A stretch of DNA of 64,000 nt, from assembly GCA_002887195.1 (NCBI GenBank), contig PJAB01000010.1, positions 1 to 64,000 of the forward strand, in the 5' to 3' direction. Below are positions 17,067-26,630 of this stretch, in pieces. A model generated the notes under the pieces. The model was given only the letters and a program-made list of their open reading frames with translations, was not told the DNA's origin and searched no databases. This DNA is from Chrysochromulina parva. Taxonomy: Eukaryota > Haptophyta > Prymnesiales > Chrysochromulinaceae. The number at the start of each line of letters is the position of its first letter. The stretch's first letter is position 1. Both the position numbers and the translations under genes were made by a program.

Positions 17067-18221
17067 ATGAAAATGGAGAGACGTACGGCAGCGAGCAACC
17101 ACATGTTCGTCTCCTCTCTTAGTGGCATTATGTTAGCTGCGACTTCGCTGATGCGTTCAGCACATTCCCTCCGCGCTTGTCAACCACGTTTGTGCCTCAC
17201 CCAGCCGCGTGGCGCTATCAGCGACGATCGGTGGTGCACGTGGGCGGCGACACACGGCATATCTGCCCCAAAGCTCGCTGTGCACACACTGGCGCCAGTC
17301 GATCGTGGCAAGGGCGGCGTATTTGCAACCGAAACTATCGCTCCGATGGAAGTGGTTGCTCGCATTCCACGCGCTCTTGCCGTGACTGCTTCAGAAGACG
17401 ATTGCAATCTTGCCAGCACGGCCCGTGTCACAGGCTGGCAAGTAGAGTTGACCGCAGCCGTGCTTCGCATCTTGCACTCGAAAGACGACCGAGTGGCTCC
17501 CGTTCGCAGCTGGCTAAAAACATGGGAGCACGGAGGATGGGCGACAGATAACGCAGACCTCGGCGCCGAGGGCGTGCGTTGGGGAGCGAGCGATGTGACG
17601 GGCAACCTAATGGCGACAGGCAGTGATAATGATCAGAACATCTTCGCTAAGTTCCGATTCCCGTGCCATCCCGTGGTGCACCGTGCTGGCCTTGGCCTCG
17701 CGATGCTCACCGGCGCCGACAAGAATGCGGCGCTGGACGCGCTTACCTGCCGCGGCACCACCTTTCGTGCCATGAGGGATGCGTTGATACCTCTTGTCAT
17801 TGAGCCCTCGCCTCGGTCCAAAGGCTCGCTACGCGACCGCCGCTCGTGGGATGTGTCCGATGCACTGTCCAGGGTGCTCGCGCGAGCAACATACCTGCAG
17901 TGGACTTCGGATGCCGAGACTCCCACGTGTGCGCTCGTGCCACTGCACGATCGTCTCGCCCACTGCGACGCCCGCGGCGAGAACGTCAAGGTGGTCGGCT
18001 GCGACCCGCGCGACCCAAATATGGACGACGTCTTGCTCGTGGCGACGCGTGAGATTGCCGTTGGCGAGGCCATCACGCGAGACTACAATGACGCCCCGAG
18101 GCTCAAAGAGTGCCGATCTGACGGCGCGCTCCGGCTGCTGCTGCAGTTCGGACTCCCGCCAGAGGCGTGGCCAAAAGGGGGTTTATCTAAGAACGGAGAT
18201 GATAAGTCCGTGAAGTCCTGA
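17067..18221 (+). CDS. SET-domain lysine methyltransferase, RLSMT/SETD-like
   Basis: A 384-residue protein with a split SET domain of the rubisco-LSMT/SETD3/SETD6 group, enzymes that transfer a methyl group from SAM to protein lysine. The N-terminal SET strand with GKGGVFATETIAPMEVVARI is at about residues 80-105. The C-terminal half carries LAHCDARGENVKVV (the NHS-like SAM/substrate loop) and DDVLLVATREIAVGEAITRDY, whose final GE...xxDY matches the catalytic tyrosine region. The C-terminal LSMT substrate-binding domain is short or absent. The leader (MFVSSLSGIMLAATSLMRSA, starting at the in-frame ATG 17103) is hydrophobic and could be a signal peptide, so plastid targeting is possible. ATG 17067 and 17103 are both plausible starts. 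Confidence 0.75.
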   Translation: MKMERRTAASNHMFVSSLSGIMLAATSLMRSAHSLRACQPRLCLTQPRGAISDDRWCTWAATHGISAPKLAVHTLAPVDRGKGGVFATETIAPMEVVARIPRALAVTASEDDCNLASTARVTGWQVELTAAVLRILHSKDDRVAPVRSWLKTWEHGGWATDNADLGAEGVRWGASDVTGNLMATGSDNDQNIFAKFRFPCHPVVHRAGLGLAMLTGADKNAALDALTCRGTTFRAMRDALIPLVIEPSPRSKGSLRDRRSWDVSDALSRVLARATYLQWTSDAETPTCALVPLHDRLAHCDARGENVKVVGCDPRDPNMDDVLLVATREIAVGEAITRDYNDAPRLKECRSDGALRLLLQFGLPPEAWPKGGLSKNGDDKSVKS

Positions 18222-18410: not shown

Positions 18411-20750
18411 ATGCTCTACGCCAGCTTTCTCACGCTTGCCGCGCTGATGCCGCAGCTGCAGACCGGTCCCGTGCAACAGCACGCGAGGGTTCCACTTTCC
18501 GCATCGCGATTGCCGCAAACGCACGCTGCACGGATGGCGCTCAAGCTGGAGGTGAATCCGCAAGCGGCAGCCGCTCTGCTAGTGGCCCCTGAGGACGCGA
18601 ACATGCCTGCGGCCTCGCAAGGCCCATTCGGCAAGGGTGGTGCGCTCGAGTGGCTTGGCAAGGTCTTCGACAAAGTGGGCGAGGACGTGCTCACCGTTCT
18701 GCACCTTTGGGACGATAAGGCCGTCCAGGACTCATCAAAAAACCTTCAGGTGCTATGGTCGCGAGCGGTGCTGGCCAAAAACGGCGAGCTGCCGGACGAT
18801 GTTGCCTACGACTTGCTGCCTCGCTCGACGCGCCACGTAGTCAAGGCAGGCCTTTTCGATGGCGTATCCGGCTGGCTTGAGTGGGTGGCTGCACGGACGC
18901 ACTTCCTCAATCAGGGATGCGACGCCTTCCTTTCGTCGCCGGCGTGCGCCGGCGGCAAGGATTGCCAGGTGGTGATCTTTGGTGCTGGGTTTGACACGCG
19001 CTCGATCCGCTACCAGCGCGAAGGGTTGCGCTTCTTCGAGGTCGACCTTCCTTCGACGATCGAGGCGAAGCGTGTCGTGCAGGAGCGCTACCGCGACGAG
19101 GTCGATCCGAACGTACGGCTGCCCACCCGCGTCGGTTTCGACCTCAACGGATGCGAGCGCACGTCACTGCTGGACCTGCTTGAGCGCGAGCACGGGTTGC
19201 GGCGCGACGTACCGACTCTCTTCATCTCAGAAGCGGTCATGTTCTATGTCAAACCGAAGGCCATCGCCAACCTGTACGGCGAAATCTTCCAGTTCGGGCA
19301 GCAGGCCGAGGCCATGTACTGCTTCACCGACTCGATGCGCCCGTTTGTGCAAGGGCCCTTCTCCGACGAAATTATGCGCTTCATGGACGCTCAGTCCGTC
19401 GATGTGCTCAGCCACACGGCGAGATGGTCTGGCGCCGTGCAGTTCATGCATGCAGTCGCGCGCACGCCGGGGACTGCGGGCCGGCCGACATCGCTGGCTG
19501 AGCACGTGCGCGCGCGCGTCGAGGCGCCTGTCAACTCGTACGCGCCCGAGCGGTGCACGCGCCAGCCCAGCGAGACGCCAAGCTTTTCTGACGCCTGGTA
19601 CGCGCTCGCGTACTCCTCTGAGCTGCGCCCGAAGACTCCATACTCGACGAGGCTCTTCGGCGAGCCGTTGACCCTGGAGCTTGCCGCCGATGGCAAGAAG
19701 CTGTCGGCCGTCTCGGCCATTGACGGCACGGAGTACGTGGCGGTGAATCACCAGGACCTGGCCTATGTCTGGCGGGGTGACCCGGCTAAGGCCGACGTGA
19801 CCACCCTGCCGACGCATCCCACGCCTGAGCAGACGCATGCGGTCGAAACCATCCTCGATTATGGCGTGGACTACAAGTACATCGTCGAGAACAATCTGGA
19901 CACGCCCCACCTGTACTGGCTGCACGACGGCTCGATCCCACCTATCGAATCCCTCGGCTGCAATCGTGACAACATCGCCAAGATAGGGCTGCGCTTCTTC
20001 ACGGATGACGTCGGCATCGGCCACATCGGGAAGACGTCGAAGAAGGTCACCAAGGTCGTACGGTTCGATGCGCCCAACATCGTGCGGCATGGCGGCGTCT
20101 CTGGCTTTTCGGAGGAGTTCAACATCATCCCTCTCGGCCCCCAGCGCACGCGTGTGCTGCTGCGGCAACGGTTCCCCAAGGGCCCCATTCTCACGACGCT
20201 GTTGCAGATCCCTGGCACCGCGGCGCTGCTGCAGTTCCTGGTGCGCCAGTGGAACTTTCAGATTGGCCTCGAGGATTACTCGGTCATGCAGGGCCAGGCA
20301 CACAACATCGACGACCTCGGCGCGGTGAACTGGCACGGCAAGTCCACAGGGGACGATTTGATCGTCAAGTACTGGAAGTGGGTGTTCGCGGCACGCGAGA
20401 ACGATGGCTTCGCGTCGGAGTATTACACGCGATGGGATGGCAGCACGCTGGATGCCGCGCGTTGCCTGGCCGTGCAGCCCATCCCGGTGCCCATCCCTTC
20501 GCACGGTAGCGAAAAACAGTTCGCGCGCGCCGACGGCGAGCACGGAGTCCGTGCTGCCTACCTGCAGAGCGCGCCGATTGCCGATTACCCGCCCATCAAC
20601 CACAACGGCTTCACCACGTCGGAGTCGCAGCTCGAATCCCTAAGGAAAGCCCTTCCTTCGCCCACCGCATTTGGTGCAACAATTGCGGGTCTCACTGGTG
20701 GTTTGAGCCTGGCCAACGCAGCGGCCAACGCTGCTCAAAGCTTTCCGTAA
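18411..20750 (+). CDS. Fusion: LCMT-type SAM methyltransferase + PaO-like oxygenase domain lacking the Rieske cluster
   Basis: An uninterrupted 779-residue protein. Residues 1-40 resemble a signal peptide plus transit segment (MLYASFLTLAALMPQLQ), suggesting plastid targeting. Residues about 80-350 are a leucine-carboxyl-methyltransferase-type domain (PPM1/YktD family): SAM loop VIFGAGFDTRSIRYQ (188-202), FFEVDLPSTIEAKR (208-221) and LFISEAVMFY (270-279). Residues about 392-700 match the pheophorbide a oxygenase/chlorophyllide a oxygenase group. The first Rieske-domain strand (DAWYALAYSSEL) and the last (VAVNHQDLAYVWRGDP) are present, but the roughly 55 residues between them that should hold the CxH and CxxH cluster ligands are gone. 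The catalytic mononuclear-iron site is intact: N494, D497, H500, H505 in VENNLDTPHLYWLH, with ED at 621-622 as the likely third ligand. Substrate unknown; a chlorophyll-type molecule is a guess from the family. Confidence 0.8.
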   Translation: MLYASFLTLAALMPQLQTGPVQQHARVPLSASRLPQTHAARMALKLEVNPQAAAALLVAPEDANMPAASQGPFGKGGALEWLGKVFDKVGEDVLTVLHLWDDKAVQDSSKNLQVLWSRAVLAKNGELPDDVAYDLLPRSTRHVVKAGLFDGVSGWLEWVAARTHFLNQGCDAFLSSPACAGGKDCQVVIFGAGFDTRSIRYQREGLRFFEVDLPSTIEAKRVVQERYRDEVDPNVRLPTRVGFDLNGCERTSLLDLLEREHGLRRDVPTLFISEAVMFYVKPKAIANLYGEIFQFGQQAEAMYCFTDSMRPFVQGPFSDEIMRFMDAQSVDVLSHTARWSGAVQFMHAVARTPGTAGRPTSLAEHVRARVEAPVNSYAPERCTRQPSETPSFSDAWYALAYSSELRPKTPYSTRLFGEPLTLELAADGKKLSAVSAIDGTEYVAVNHQDLAYVWRGDPAKADVTTLPTHPTPEQTHAVETILDYGVDYKYIVENNLDTPHLYWLHDGSIPPIESLGCNRDNIAKIGLRFFTDDVGIGHIGKTSKKVTKVVRFDAPNIVRHGGVSGFSEEFNIIPLGPQRTRVLLRQRFPKGPILTTLLQIPGTAALLQFLVRQWNFQIGLEDYSVMQGQAHNIDDLGAVNWHGKSTGDDLIVKYWKWVFAARENDGFASEYYTRWDGSTLDAARCLAVQPIPVPIPSHGSEKQFARADGEHGVRAAYLQSAPIADYPPINHNGFTTSESQLESLRKALPSPTAFGATIAGLTGGLSLANAAANAAQSFP

Positions 20751-24193: not shown

Positions 24194-24452
24194 TGAAATG
24201 TGCGAAACGGAAGGGAGCGAGCGAGGAAGCAAGTCAAGTCAAGACAAGTCAAATCGCTACCTCCGCCCACTTTCCCTCCGTTCGAACATGTTCCACACAA
24301 AGTGTGTATCAATGAGTAGTGTCTAACCCAGCGCTTTTCTCTCAAGTGCTATTCCCCAACTGCCTGATTGCCCCAACTCGCGTGCTCGCGTTCGTCGGCC
24401 TTTCGTCGGCCAACGCCTGTTCTTGCCGACCGAAAGATCGACGACGGAGACC
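24194..24452. promoter_or_regulatory. Bidirectional intergenic promoter region
   Basis: A 259-bp gap between divergent ATGs of the EF-hand and Pumilio genes. No TATA box was clear. Confidence 0.4.
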
Positions 24453-25522
24453 ATGGTGGCGTTGGCGAGCGACACTGGAGGCTGCATTGGCCAGCTGGTC
24501 AGCCAGAAGTCCTTCCCGGAGTCGCCACCGACGACGGGCCGCCGAAAAAGCGTGCGCTCGCCGCTCGGACTGAATGCGGCAACCGCGCCACCAAACCTAT
24601 ACTCGGCGGAGATGCGCGCAGCCAACCTGCAGAACGAGAAGGCGACCGAGACCGGCCCAATTGCCGACGTCGGGGCGCTCACGATCGGGCGTCGCCACTC
24701 GATCGGCACCAACAGCTACAAGCACATGCAGCACGAGCTCTCGTTGTCCAACAACTGCATCGAGATCGACCTGAACGCCTCGCTTGACTTCGAGCTGCAC
24801 CGCTCGATATCGCGCCTCTTCGACGAGGAGGACGAGCACGCAACCGAGGAGACTGGAGAACCCACGGCACCGCGCCCCGAGAGCTCGGGTCCGCGCCTCA
24901 CCCGCAGCTACTCGATCGGCGCGTCCAACCTGAAGTACGACTCGCATGCGAGCCGTCAACCCGACCTGCACGAGGTGCTCTACGCGCCCAAGCGCGTCGG
25001 TCCTCAGGACTGGCTCTCTGATGTCGACAAGGTGCACAAGACCAAGACGTGTAAGGCGTCGGCCAACGCCTCGGCCGGCTCGCCACCCTCGACGCCGCCG
25101 CGCATGATTTCGCCTGCCGCCGCCGGCTCGCCGCCACTCGCCACCGCGAGCGAGTCCGACTCCGGCGGCTCGCCTGTCTCCGACGTCACCACTGGCAGCC
25201 CTCTTCCGCCGATGGGGGCAGCGCCGGCCGCCGCCGCCTCGCCGCGCTCGATGCAGCGCTGGGCCACGTACGAACGCCACGCGCTCTCGGCGCTCAAGCA
25301 GCCCGTCCTCGAGCCCCTGCCCTTGCCCGCAGGCTTCTATGGCGAGGTGCTCCCCGGCGCGCAGCCCGTCTCGCCGCCGACGATGGGCGTGGCACCCTTT
25401 GCATTGCCCATGCTCGCGCCGCAGCCAGGCCTGCTGCCAGCGCCTTGGCTCATGCAGCAGCAGCACGCGCAGCAAGGGTTCCAACAACAGATGGCCTCCG
25501 CCGTCATTCAGCATCAGCTCCT

Positions 25523-25583
<61 letters not shown>

Positions 25584-26630
25584 ATGCAGCAGCAGCAAAT
25601 GCAGCAGATGCAGCAGCAGCAGATGCACTTCCAGCAGCAGATGCTTCTCCCGCCGCCGCTGCTCCCGGGGCAGCCCAACCCCTTTTTCGCCCACCAGGGC
25701 TTCGGCTTCGTCATGGGCCCGATGCAGCCGCAGCACGCACCTGCACCCTCCGCGGGGGTCTACTCGCCCGCGCGCGTGCCGCAGCACGTGCTGCAGCCGG
25801 GCCGGCTCGTTGCGATGGCCAAGGAGCAGGAGGGCTCTCGCACGCTGCAGCGCGCGCTCACGGGCATGTCGCCCGTGAGGCTTCAGGCGGCGTGCGACGA
25901 GCTCGGGCCCCACCTCGGTGAGCTCTCGACCAACCTGTTTGGCAACTACCTCGTCTCGAACATGGCCTCGCTTCCCGAGGCACAGCCGTGGGTGGAAAAC
26001 GCGCTGCGTGGCCGCGTGGTCGAGTTCATGAAGCACGCACAGGGCTCGCGCGTCGTGCAGGCCGCGCTTCACTCACTCCCGAGCAAGATGGCGGCGGCGC
26101 TCATCGACGAGCTCCAAGGTCACGTGGCGACCACCGCCACGACCATTAACGGTTCGTGGAGCGTGTGCACCGCCTTCAAGGTGACGCGTGCGCCCTTCAT
26201 CGTGCGTGAGATCGCCGGGGCGATCAGCGTGCTGTCGACGCAGCAGAGCGGCTCGCGCGCCGTCCAGAAGATCCTTCCCGAGGCGGAGAGCCATGGCGTC
26301 GACACGCGCTGCGTGGCGGCCGCGCTCATCGCGTGCGGCGCCGACGAGCTCACACGCCTCTCCCTCGACCAATATGGCAACTACGTGGTGCAGATCGCGC
26401 TGCGGATCGCGCTACCCAGCCAACGCGAGGACCTCGCCAACCTGCTGCTGCCCGTGCTGCCGCAGCTCGCCACAAGCAAGGCGGGTTCCAACGTGGCCGA
26501 AGCGGTCATTGGCTGCGCGACCGCCGAGCAGCTCAATGCGGCCGTCTCGCTGCTGCACGGCTGCGGCATCGATCTCGCGACGCACTGCTTCGGCAAGCAC
26601 GTCATCGCGACGCTCGACCGCCGCAAGTGA
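24453..26630 (+). CDS. Pumilio/PUF-repeat RNA-binding protein with polyglutamine tract
   Basis: A 725-residue protein from ATG 24453. Residues 1-360 are disordered Ser/Pro/Ala sequence with repeated TRSYSIGASNLKYDS-like motifs (RRHSIGTNSYKHM near the start). Next come 20 consecutive Gln and further Gln/Met-rich sequence. The C-terminal 300 residues are PUF repeats, which read single-stranded RNA one base per repeat and usually repress mRNA translation. Repeat signatures include LVAMAKEQEGSRTLQ, LSTNLFGNYLVSNM, FMKHAQGSRVVQ, LSTQQSGSRAVQKIL, LSLDQYGNYVVQIAL, LATSKAGSNVAEAVI and ATHCFGKHVIATL. I count seven or eight. Several repeats keep the canonical SR/NY-type base-contacting triplets. No intron is needed. 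Divergent from the EF-hand gene. Confidence 0.9.
25524..25583 (+). repeat. (CAG)19-CAA trinucleotide repeat encoding polyQ
   Basis: Twenty consecutive glutamine codons, 19 of them CAG, inside the Pumilio-like gene. The near-purity of CAG suggests recent slippage expansion. More interrupted CAG/ATG codons follow to about 25640. Confidence 0.95.

Follow-up and report, generated by a model that had tools for sequence, protein, structure and literature searches.

A gene in the 64,000-nucleotide stretch of the Chrysochromulina parva genome analysed here (the window) probably encodes the subunit that carries the iron site and a methyltransferase in a Rieske oxygenase divided between two proteins, with a paralogue on contig C1876 as the Rieske subunit. 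The presumed ancestor was a three-part protein, consisting of a methyltransferase of the leucine carboxyl methyltransferase (LCM) type, a Rieske domain and an iron domain, which is still whole in other algae. Following its duplication, the window copy would have lost only the [2Fe-2S] cluster-binding segment, and the C1876 copy would have kept the Rieske cluster, lost the methyltransferase and suffered decay of its iron site. Since the same genome holds these mirror-image losses, the two proteins probably make up one plastid enzyme.

The fusion gene and its domains

It had been predicted from the DNA alone that an LCM methyltransferase and an oxygenase are joined in one frame, and this is borne out by a 779-codon frame (Table 1) in which Pfam LCM (PF04072) is matched at 66.9 bits against a cut-off of 22.3. 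Within the SAM motif GxGxD, residues G191, A192, G193 and D195 are nearly invariant across 48 sequences, and E210 and D212 are invariant. Enzymes of the LCM fold, such as LCMT-1 and TYW4, methylate carboxylates, and the same activity is predicted for the LCM domain of the window protein. The remainder of the protein has the catalytic-domain fold of the alpha subunit of a Rieske non-haem iron oxygenase, with a 2-His-1-Asp iron site and its bridging Asp (D497, H500, H505, D622); the alignment agrees with the earlier statement that these ligands and N494 have been retained. Pfam Rieske (PF00355) found no match in the window protein, and the C-x-H and C-x2-H pairs that an alpha subunit carries in the same chain are present in 0/33 Rieske-less rows, the window protein included.

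Table 1. Position of the fusion gene and its parts in the window
Feature	Position	Strand	Remarks
Fusion gene: leader, LCM carboxyl methyltransferase domain and Rieske-less oxygenase	18411..20750	+	779 aa, single frame
N-terminal leader, residues 1-41, hydrophobic start then basic stretch	18411..18533	+	putatively plastid-type, from homologues; low confidence in structure model
LCM (leucine carboxyl methyltransferase) domain, residues 106-371	18726..19523	+	SAM motif GAGFDTR, E210/D212 conserved
Oxygenase domain, residues 389-683	19575..20459	+	
Rieske remnant, strands in residues 395-455, cluster-binding part gone	19593..19775	+	structure model, comparison with P0027
Deletion point, about 51 residues absent (P0027 445-495, including all four cluster ligands)	19703..19704	+	
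Mononuclear-iron motif ENNLDTPHLYWLH: N494, D497 (bridging Asp), H500, H505	19887..19925	+	
D622, third iron ligand	20274..20276	+	

A plastid leader had also been proposed, and comparison with homologues makes it plausible. Homologues in both protein groups have leaders with a hydrophobic start, in several of them with an ASAF-, ATAF- or AAY-like site, and among 31 N-termini chosen by hand and judged by hydropathy score and by eye, P0005 and P0144 were without a clear hydrophobic stretch; a plastid location of both groups is plausible from these leaders. The 58 matches to light-harvesting proteins in the window's genome, some of them partial, indicate that the genome is a photosynthetic one.

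The label PaO/CAO-like did not survive. Pfam PaO (PF08417), which CAO itself carries, was matched by none of 48 fusions at E up to 0.01 (E up to 1 for the window protein, up to 0.01 for its 47 relatives) and by nothing in the genome, and membership of that family was rejected. The nearest solved relatives of the oxygenase are DdmC, SxtT/GxtA and similar oxygenases, the substrates of which are dicamba, saxitoxins, guaiacol and other small molecules.

Two further frames in the window may be recorded here. Just upstream, at 17067-18221 (+), lies a 384-aa frame with a SET-domain match of 21.7 bits against a cut-off of 22.4, possibly a protein lysine methyltransferase, and at 24423-26630 (+) there is a PUF-repeat RNA-binding protein with a long glutamine run.

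Homologues with and without the Rieske segment

About 5.8 billion proteins were searched with the window protein, and scoring of the 8000 candidates with the most shared words yielded 105 matches. Absence of the fusion from orthologues had been named as a possible refutation, and the fusion does recur: 57/105 matches have LCM and Rieske domains and 26/105 have LCM alone, the other 22 being without an LCM match and many of these shorter. In all 26 of the LCM-only proteins (P0001-P0026, chosen by Pfam content) the pattern C.H..C..H is absent and ENNLDTPHLYWLH is kept. The postulated loss of the cluster-binding segment, amounting to about 51 residues by comparison with the intact fusion P0027, is thus found alike in 26/26 full-length LCM-only homologues. 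P0001 is a near-copy of the window protein and P0021 comes from an MMETSP transcript, so that the Rieske-less state is also met in RNA. A hand-chosen set of 48 members, comprising 26 Rieske-less proteins (the window protein included) and 22 others, gave Pfam LCM in 48/48 (E up to 0.01) and Rieske in 22. Because the 26 LCM-only homologues and the 48-member set agree, the Rieske-less state is a fixed feature of one clade. In P0026, a Rieske-less protein, the place of the lost cluster segment is taken by a low-complexity linker of threonine and alanine, which is what a loss of constraint would lead one to expect.

The original prediction had regarded the fusion as being of an undescribed kind; this has to be revised, as the architecture is older and is found with an intact Rieske domain, its named carriers being diatoms, Triparma and pelagophytes, and the special part is the reciprocal split. 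The Rieske-bearing fusions that carry a species name are from Ditylum brightwellii, Corethron (taxid 216773), Thalassiosira sp. AJA248-18, Triparma laevis, T. verrucosa, Chrysophaeum taylorii and Aureococcus anophagefferens, to which the best 120 of 136 matches from a second search add Thalassiosira exigua and Triparma pacifica (deposited as Bolidomonas). Every species-named fusion is therefore from a diatom, Triparma or a pelagophyte, all of them groups with chlorophyll (chl) c. No species name is attached to any of the 26 Rieske-less fusions, and among the matches listed there is no named fusion from Phaeodactylum, T. pseudonana, Isochrysis, Tisochrysis, Emiliania or green algae. Such gaps say little, because few matches carry a name at all (9/105 in the window-protein search, 6/62 in the C1876 search and 12 of the 120 listed out of 136 in the second search).

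A Rieske-only paralogue in the same genome

In the window's genome (45.07 Mb in 2199 contigs) the fusion protein as query matched a single oxygenase paralogue, at C1876:3883-4614 with 36% identity, and a single LCM protein. The paralogue has the four Rieske ligands (CPHR..CFYH) and no methyltransferase, and the separate Rieske-bearing partner that had been suggested for the window protein thereby has a strong candidate. Its iron motif is AANLGAPHLHPML at the place of the window's ENNLDTPHLYWLH, and to judge from the lost ligands its iron site is presumably non-working. When P0027 was used as the query, matches of high identity were obtained on contig C10, which holds the window gene (two pieces, 55 and 57%), and on C1876 (one piece, residues 393-779, 52%); three further matches in the genome were an LCM protein (34%) and two Rieske proteins (29 and 28%). 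The window gene and the C1876 gene have similar GC at third codon positions (0.789 and 0.811), which gives no sign of a foreign contig.

Two other frames of the genome join a Rieske-type ferredoxin domain to an unrelated partner. On contig C664 (L005:508-1860, -) such a domain (43.6 bits) stands N-terminal to a ferrochelatase domain (141 bits), the ferrochelatase match covering about half of the profile and the frame having a leader-like start; on contig C1911 (L006:1390-3213, -) the Rieske-type ferredoxin domain (about 43 bits) lies at the C-terminal end, joined to a DnaJ domain (34.8 bits).

Reciprocal loss across the sequences

A search with the C1876 frame, again with 8000 candidates scored, gave 62 matches, including Prymnesium parvum and Haptolina ericina (checked to be a haptophyte). 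The Rieske-only set was taken by search rank and not by ligands, and consists of P0105-P0157, less the intact fusion P0153, together with the C1876 protein (53 rows). All four cluster ligands are present in 51/53 of these rows, the exceptions being P0155, which is without the first pair, and P0157, in which Arg replaces the second His. The full iron site with the bridging Asp is present in 2/53 and the bare 2-His-1-Asp triad in 7/53, P0105 and P0110 among them, single columns being less certain than the overall picture because the iron region of the Rieske-only rows aligns poorly. The Rieske-less rows give the opposite result, with the cluster in 0/33 and the iron ligands N, D, H, H and D622 in 33/33, this set having been picked by a motif that holds the first four. 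The intact set has the cluster in 88/91 (exceptions P0093, P0097 and P0099) and the iron site in 88/91 (P0068, P0076 and P0088 differing at the third iron ligand). In a further set of 36 rows, made up of 33 Rieske-only proteins and the fusions P0027, P0068 and P0040, Pfam Rieske was found in 36 and LCM in 3, which is the number of fusions added.

P0105 and P0110 belong to the Rieske-only clade and have no LCM domain, and both metal sites are complete in them; they may mark an earlier stage or have another function. As these two and the five further triad rows keep iron ligands, the split may not hold throughout the Rieske-only clade.

Mean pairwise identity in the catalytic part is 0.872 for the Rieske-less set, 0.715 for the intact and 0.421 for the Rieske-only proteins, and in the Rieske segment it is 0.657 for the Rieske-only and 0.583 for the intact proteins. 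The high value for the Rieske-less set may come in part from a younger divergence, the LCM part of these rows also reaching 0.722. On these figures constraint is mirrored between the two groups, as a division of one enzyme between them predicts.

Descent of the two clades

In the main tree, of 48 chosen rows, the Rieske-less clade has a support of 100/100 and the Rieske-only clade of 99/95, and a branch with 100/95 sets both of them and the intact P0027 apart from the 18 remaining intact fusions. P0027 is placed with the Rieske-only clade (96/67), and neither of the alternatives was rejected, these being P0027 with the Rieske-less clade (p-AU 0.179) and the Rieske-less with the Rieske-only clade without P0027 (p-AU 0.265). 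A second tree of 109 rows gave the same clades, with the Rieske-only clade at 87 and P0155 placed there. A local profile was used to look for leftovers of the LCM domain at the N-terminal ends of the Rieske-only proteins and gave no significant match (best E 0.15), and descent of these proteins from a full fusion is therefore argued from the tree and P0027. The simplest reading would be a duplication in the lineage of these algae followed by reciprocal loss; a stand-alone ancestor for the Rieske-only clade is still conceivable.

A proposed divided enzyme

In ordinary trimeric Rieske oxygenases the electron leaves the cluster in one subunit and reaches the iron in the next. Because this transfer crosses between subunits, the electron path would be restored in a ring built from both the window protein and the C1876 protein. 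Electrons would pass from ferredoxin to the Rieske cluster of the C1876 protein and across the interface via D497 to the iron of the window protein, where O2 would be activated, and the oxygenase product would then be methylated by the LCM domain. We infer complex formation, this electron path, the plastid location and the order of events, as well as the substrate considered below, and the retention of D497 would be easiest to explain if this is still a docking place for a Rieske cluster. For CAO, a 2026 review describes an AlphaFold3 model with cross-subunit transfer, the iron ligands N, H, H and D and a distance of 12 A between the centres (PMC13297055).

Both genes were sought in one genome, the window's own. 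Prymnesium parvum has a Rieske-only relative (P0126), and among the matches listed no Rieske-less one bears its name.

The possible substrate

The domain pair predicts the series CH3 to COOH to COOCH3, and the likeliest substrate class would be a ring methyl that is oxidised three times to a carboxylate and then methyl-esterified. Among known reactions the formation of chl c3 seems to fit the fusion best, a judgement made with rather less than even confidence. It is possible, and is proposed tentatively, that the fusion is the chl c3 synthase, converting the 7-methyl of chl c2 or of a protochlorophyllide precursor to 7-methoxycarbonyl in one polypeptide, and that in one haptophyte lineage reciprocal decay of duplicated copies has turned it into a complex that requires both genes. 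According to a 2024 review, no enzyme has yet been assigned to the 7-methoxycarbonyl group of chl c3, and the route proposed there is an oxidation like that of CAO and then an esterification (PMC11879082). The 2026 review describes enzymes for c1 and c2 and, in the part consulted, directs readers to a separate review on how chl c variants are made (PMC13297055). No literature was found in which chl c3, Rieske and methyltransferase occur together, and in the accessible text of PMC12716418 the matches to "chl c3" are site numbers such as c314.

There is a considerable chance, if below one half, that the split enzyme is real and acts on something other than chl c, for example a methyl of a carotenoid, sterol or lipid. 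The oxygenase lies outside the PaO/CAO Pfam family and its nearest solved relatives act on small molecules, and Prymnesium parvum was met, among the matches listed, only with the Rieske-only form, which counts against chl c3. A strain designated Pt in a survey of 37 strains is presumably Phaeodactylum. That survey, in the part available, gives chl c3 for Emiliania huxleyi alone, and not for T. pseudonana, Isochrysis, Tisochrysis or Pt (PMC5322898), yet no match bears the name of E. huxleyi. A 7-methoxycarbonyl pigment is also reported from the green algae Micromonas and Ostreococcus (PMC11879082), yet no match is a named green alga, and chl c3 is described as a minority pigment among diatoms (PMC4584358); in the portions of the literature searched, the chl c3 content of the named fusion-bearing diatoms was not found. 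Against this, the combination of methyl oxidation and carboxyl methylation with plastid-type leaders closely fits chl c3, the scarcity of species names deprives absent names of much weight and green algae may have another solution. It also counts for chl c3 that the named fusions are all from chl c groups and that the names Phaeodactylum, T. pseudonana, Isochrysis and Tisochrysis do not occur among them.

Synthesis of 19'-acyloxyfucoxanthin was considered as another function and placed second, because it needs acylation, not methylation, and the named diatoms have the fusion.

Other readings of the two proteins

It is unlikely that the iron subunit is fed by a different donor, either a soluble Rieske protein or a plant-type ferredoxin, with the Rieske-only paralogue serving some other oxygenase. 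The genome has 13 Rieske matches in all, small stand-alone proteins among them (e.g. a 245-aa frame on contig C1050), but the Rieske-only paralogue is of the same family with a complementary loss, and the bridging Asp D497, which in this class of enzyme helps the electron across from a cluster docked on the adjacent subunit, is kept in 33/33 rows. Very improbable is the reading in which the methyltransferase works alone and the oxygenase half is a structural relic: the cluster for its electron supply is indeed absent from the chain, but drift would then be expected, as in the iron site of the Rieske-only clade, and instead the catalytic part is the most conserved in the Rieske-less clade (0.872 against 0.722 for LCM) and its ligands are kept. 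An artefact, in the form of a missed Rieske exon or an assembly or frame error in this fragmented assembly, was rejected as next to impossible on the same in-frame absence in 26/26 full-length homologues from several data sources, one of them RNA, and on the finding that 0/13 Rieske matches of the genome lie on contig C10.

Comparison with known systems

The divided enzyme favoured here would be a clear natural case in which mirror-image decay of paralogues has apparently broken an electron-transfer enzyme into two halves that depend on each other, outside the family of Micromonas CAO. The split is also a test of whether, as a rule, electrons in Rieske oxygenases move from one subunit to another. 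The gene is also a concrete candidate for the chl c3 step, the fused oxygenase and carboxyl methyltransferase being the pair of activities suggested in the available text of PMC11879082. If this is true the gene would find wide use, since chl c3 is treated as a haptophyte marker pigment in ocean pigment work (PMC7043335).

Split Rieske oxygenases are already known in kind. In Micromonas CAO, as reportedly found by Kunugi in 2013, the Rieske cluster and the iron are on different chains. The NdmC/NdmD caffeine N7-demethylase of Pseudomonas putida likewise has a Rieske-less oxygenase that is served by the Rieske domain of another protein, but it is bacterial, the Rieske domain is on a reductase rather than on a decayed paralogue and there is no fusion to a methyltransferase. 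Dicamba monooxygenase (DdmC), an alpha3 Rieske oxygenase, differs in having both metal sites on one chain and no methyltransferase, and to our knowledge neither LCMT-1 nor TYW4 is fused to an oxygenase. The direct relatives are the LCM-Rieske-oxygenase fusions of diatoms, Triparma and pelagophytes (P0058, P0077, P0084 and others), which have the same domain order and are homologous along their length, but hold both metal sites in one chain (88/91 rows each). In vitro, the Micromonas CAO works as a two-chain enzyme, for which an arrangement as a trimer of dimers has been put forward (PMC9615114). By analogy the window protein and the C1876 protein would assemble in a comparable mixed form, one oxygenase on two chains, but the available account of the Micromonas enzyme describes no methyltransferase, and the present oxygenase, without a Pfam PaO match, is of another family and involves reciprocal decay of paralogues. 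As far as the searches go, that of the literature having been aimed at chl c3, what is new is the fusion to a carboxyl methyltransferase, the reciprocal decay of two paralogues, with dozens of sequences showing it on both sides, and a concrete candidate gene for a biosynthetic step that still lacks one.
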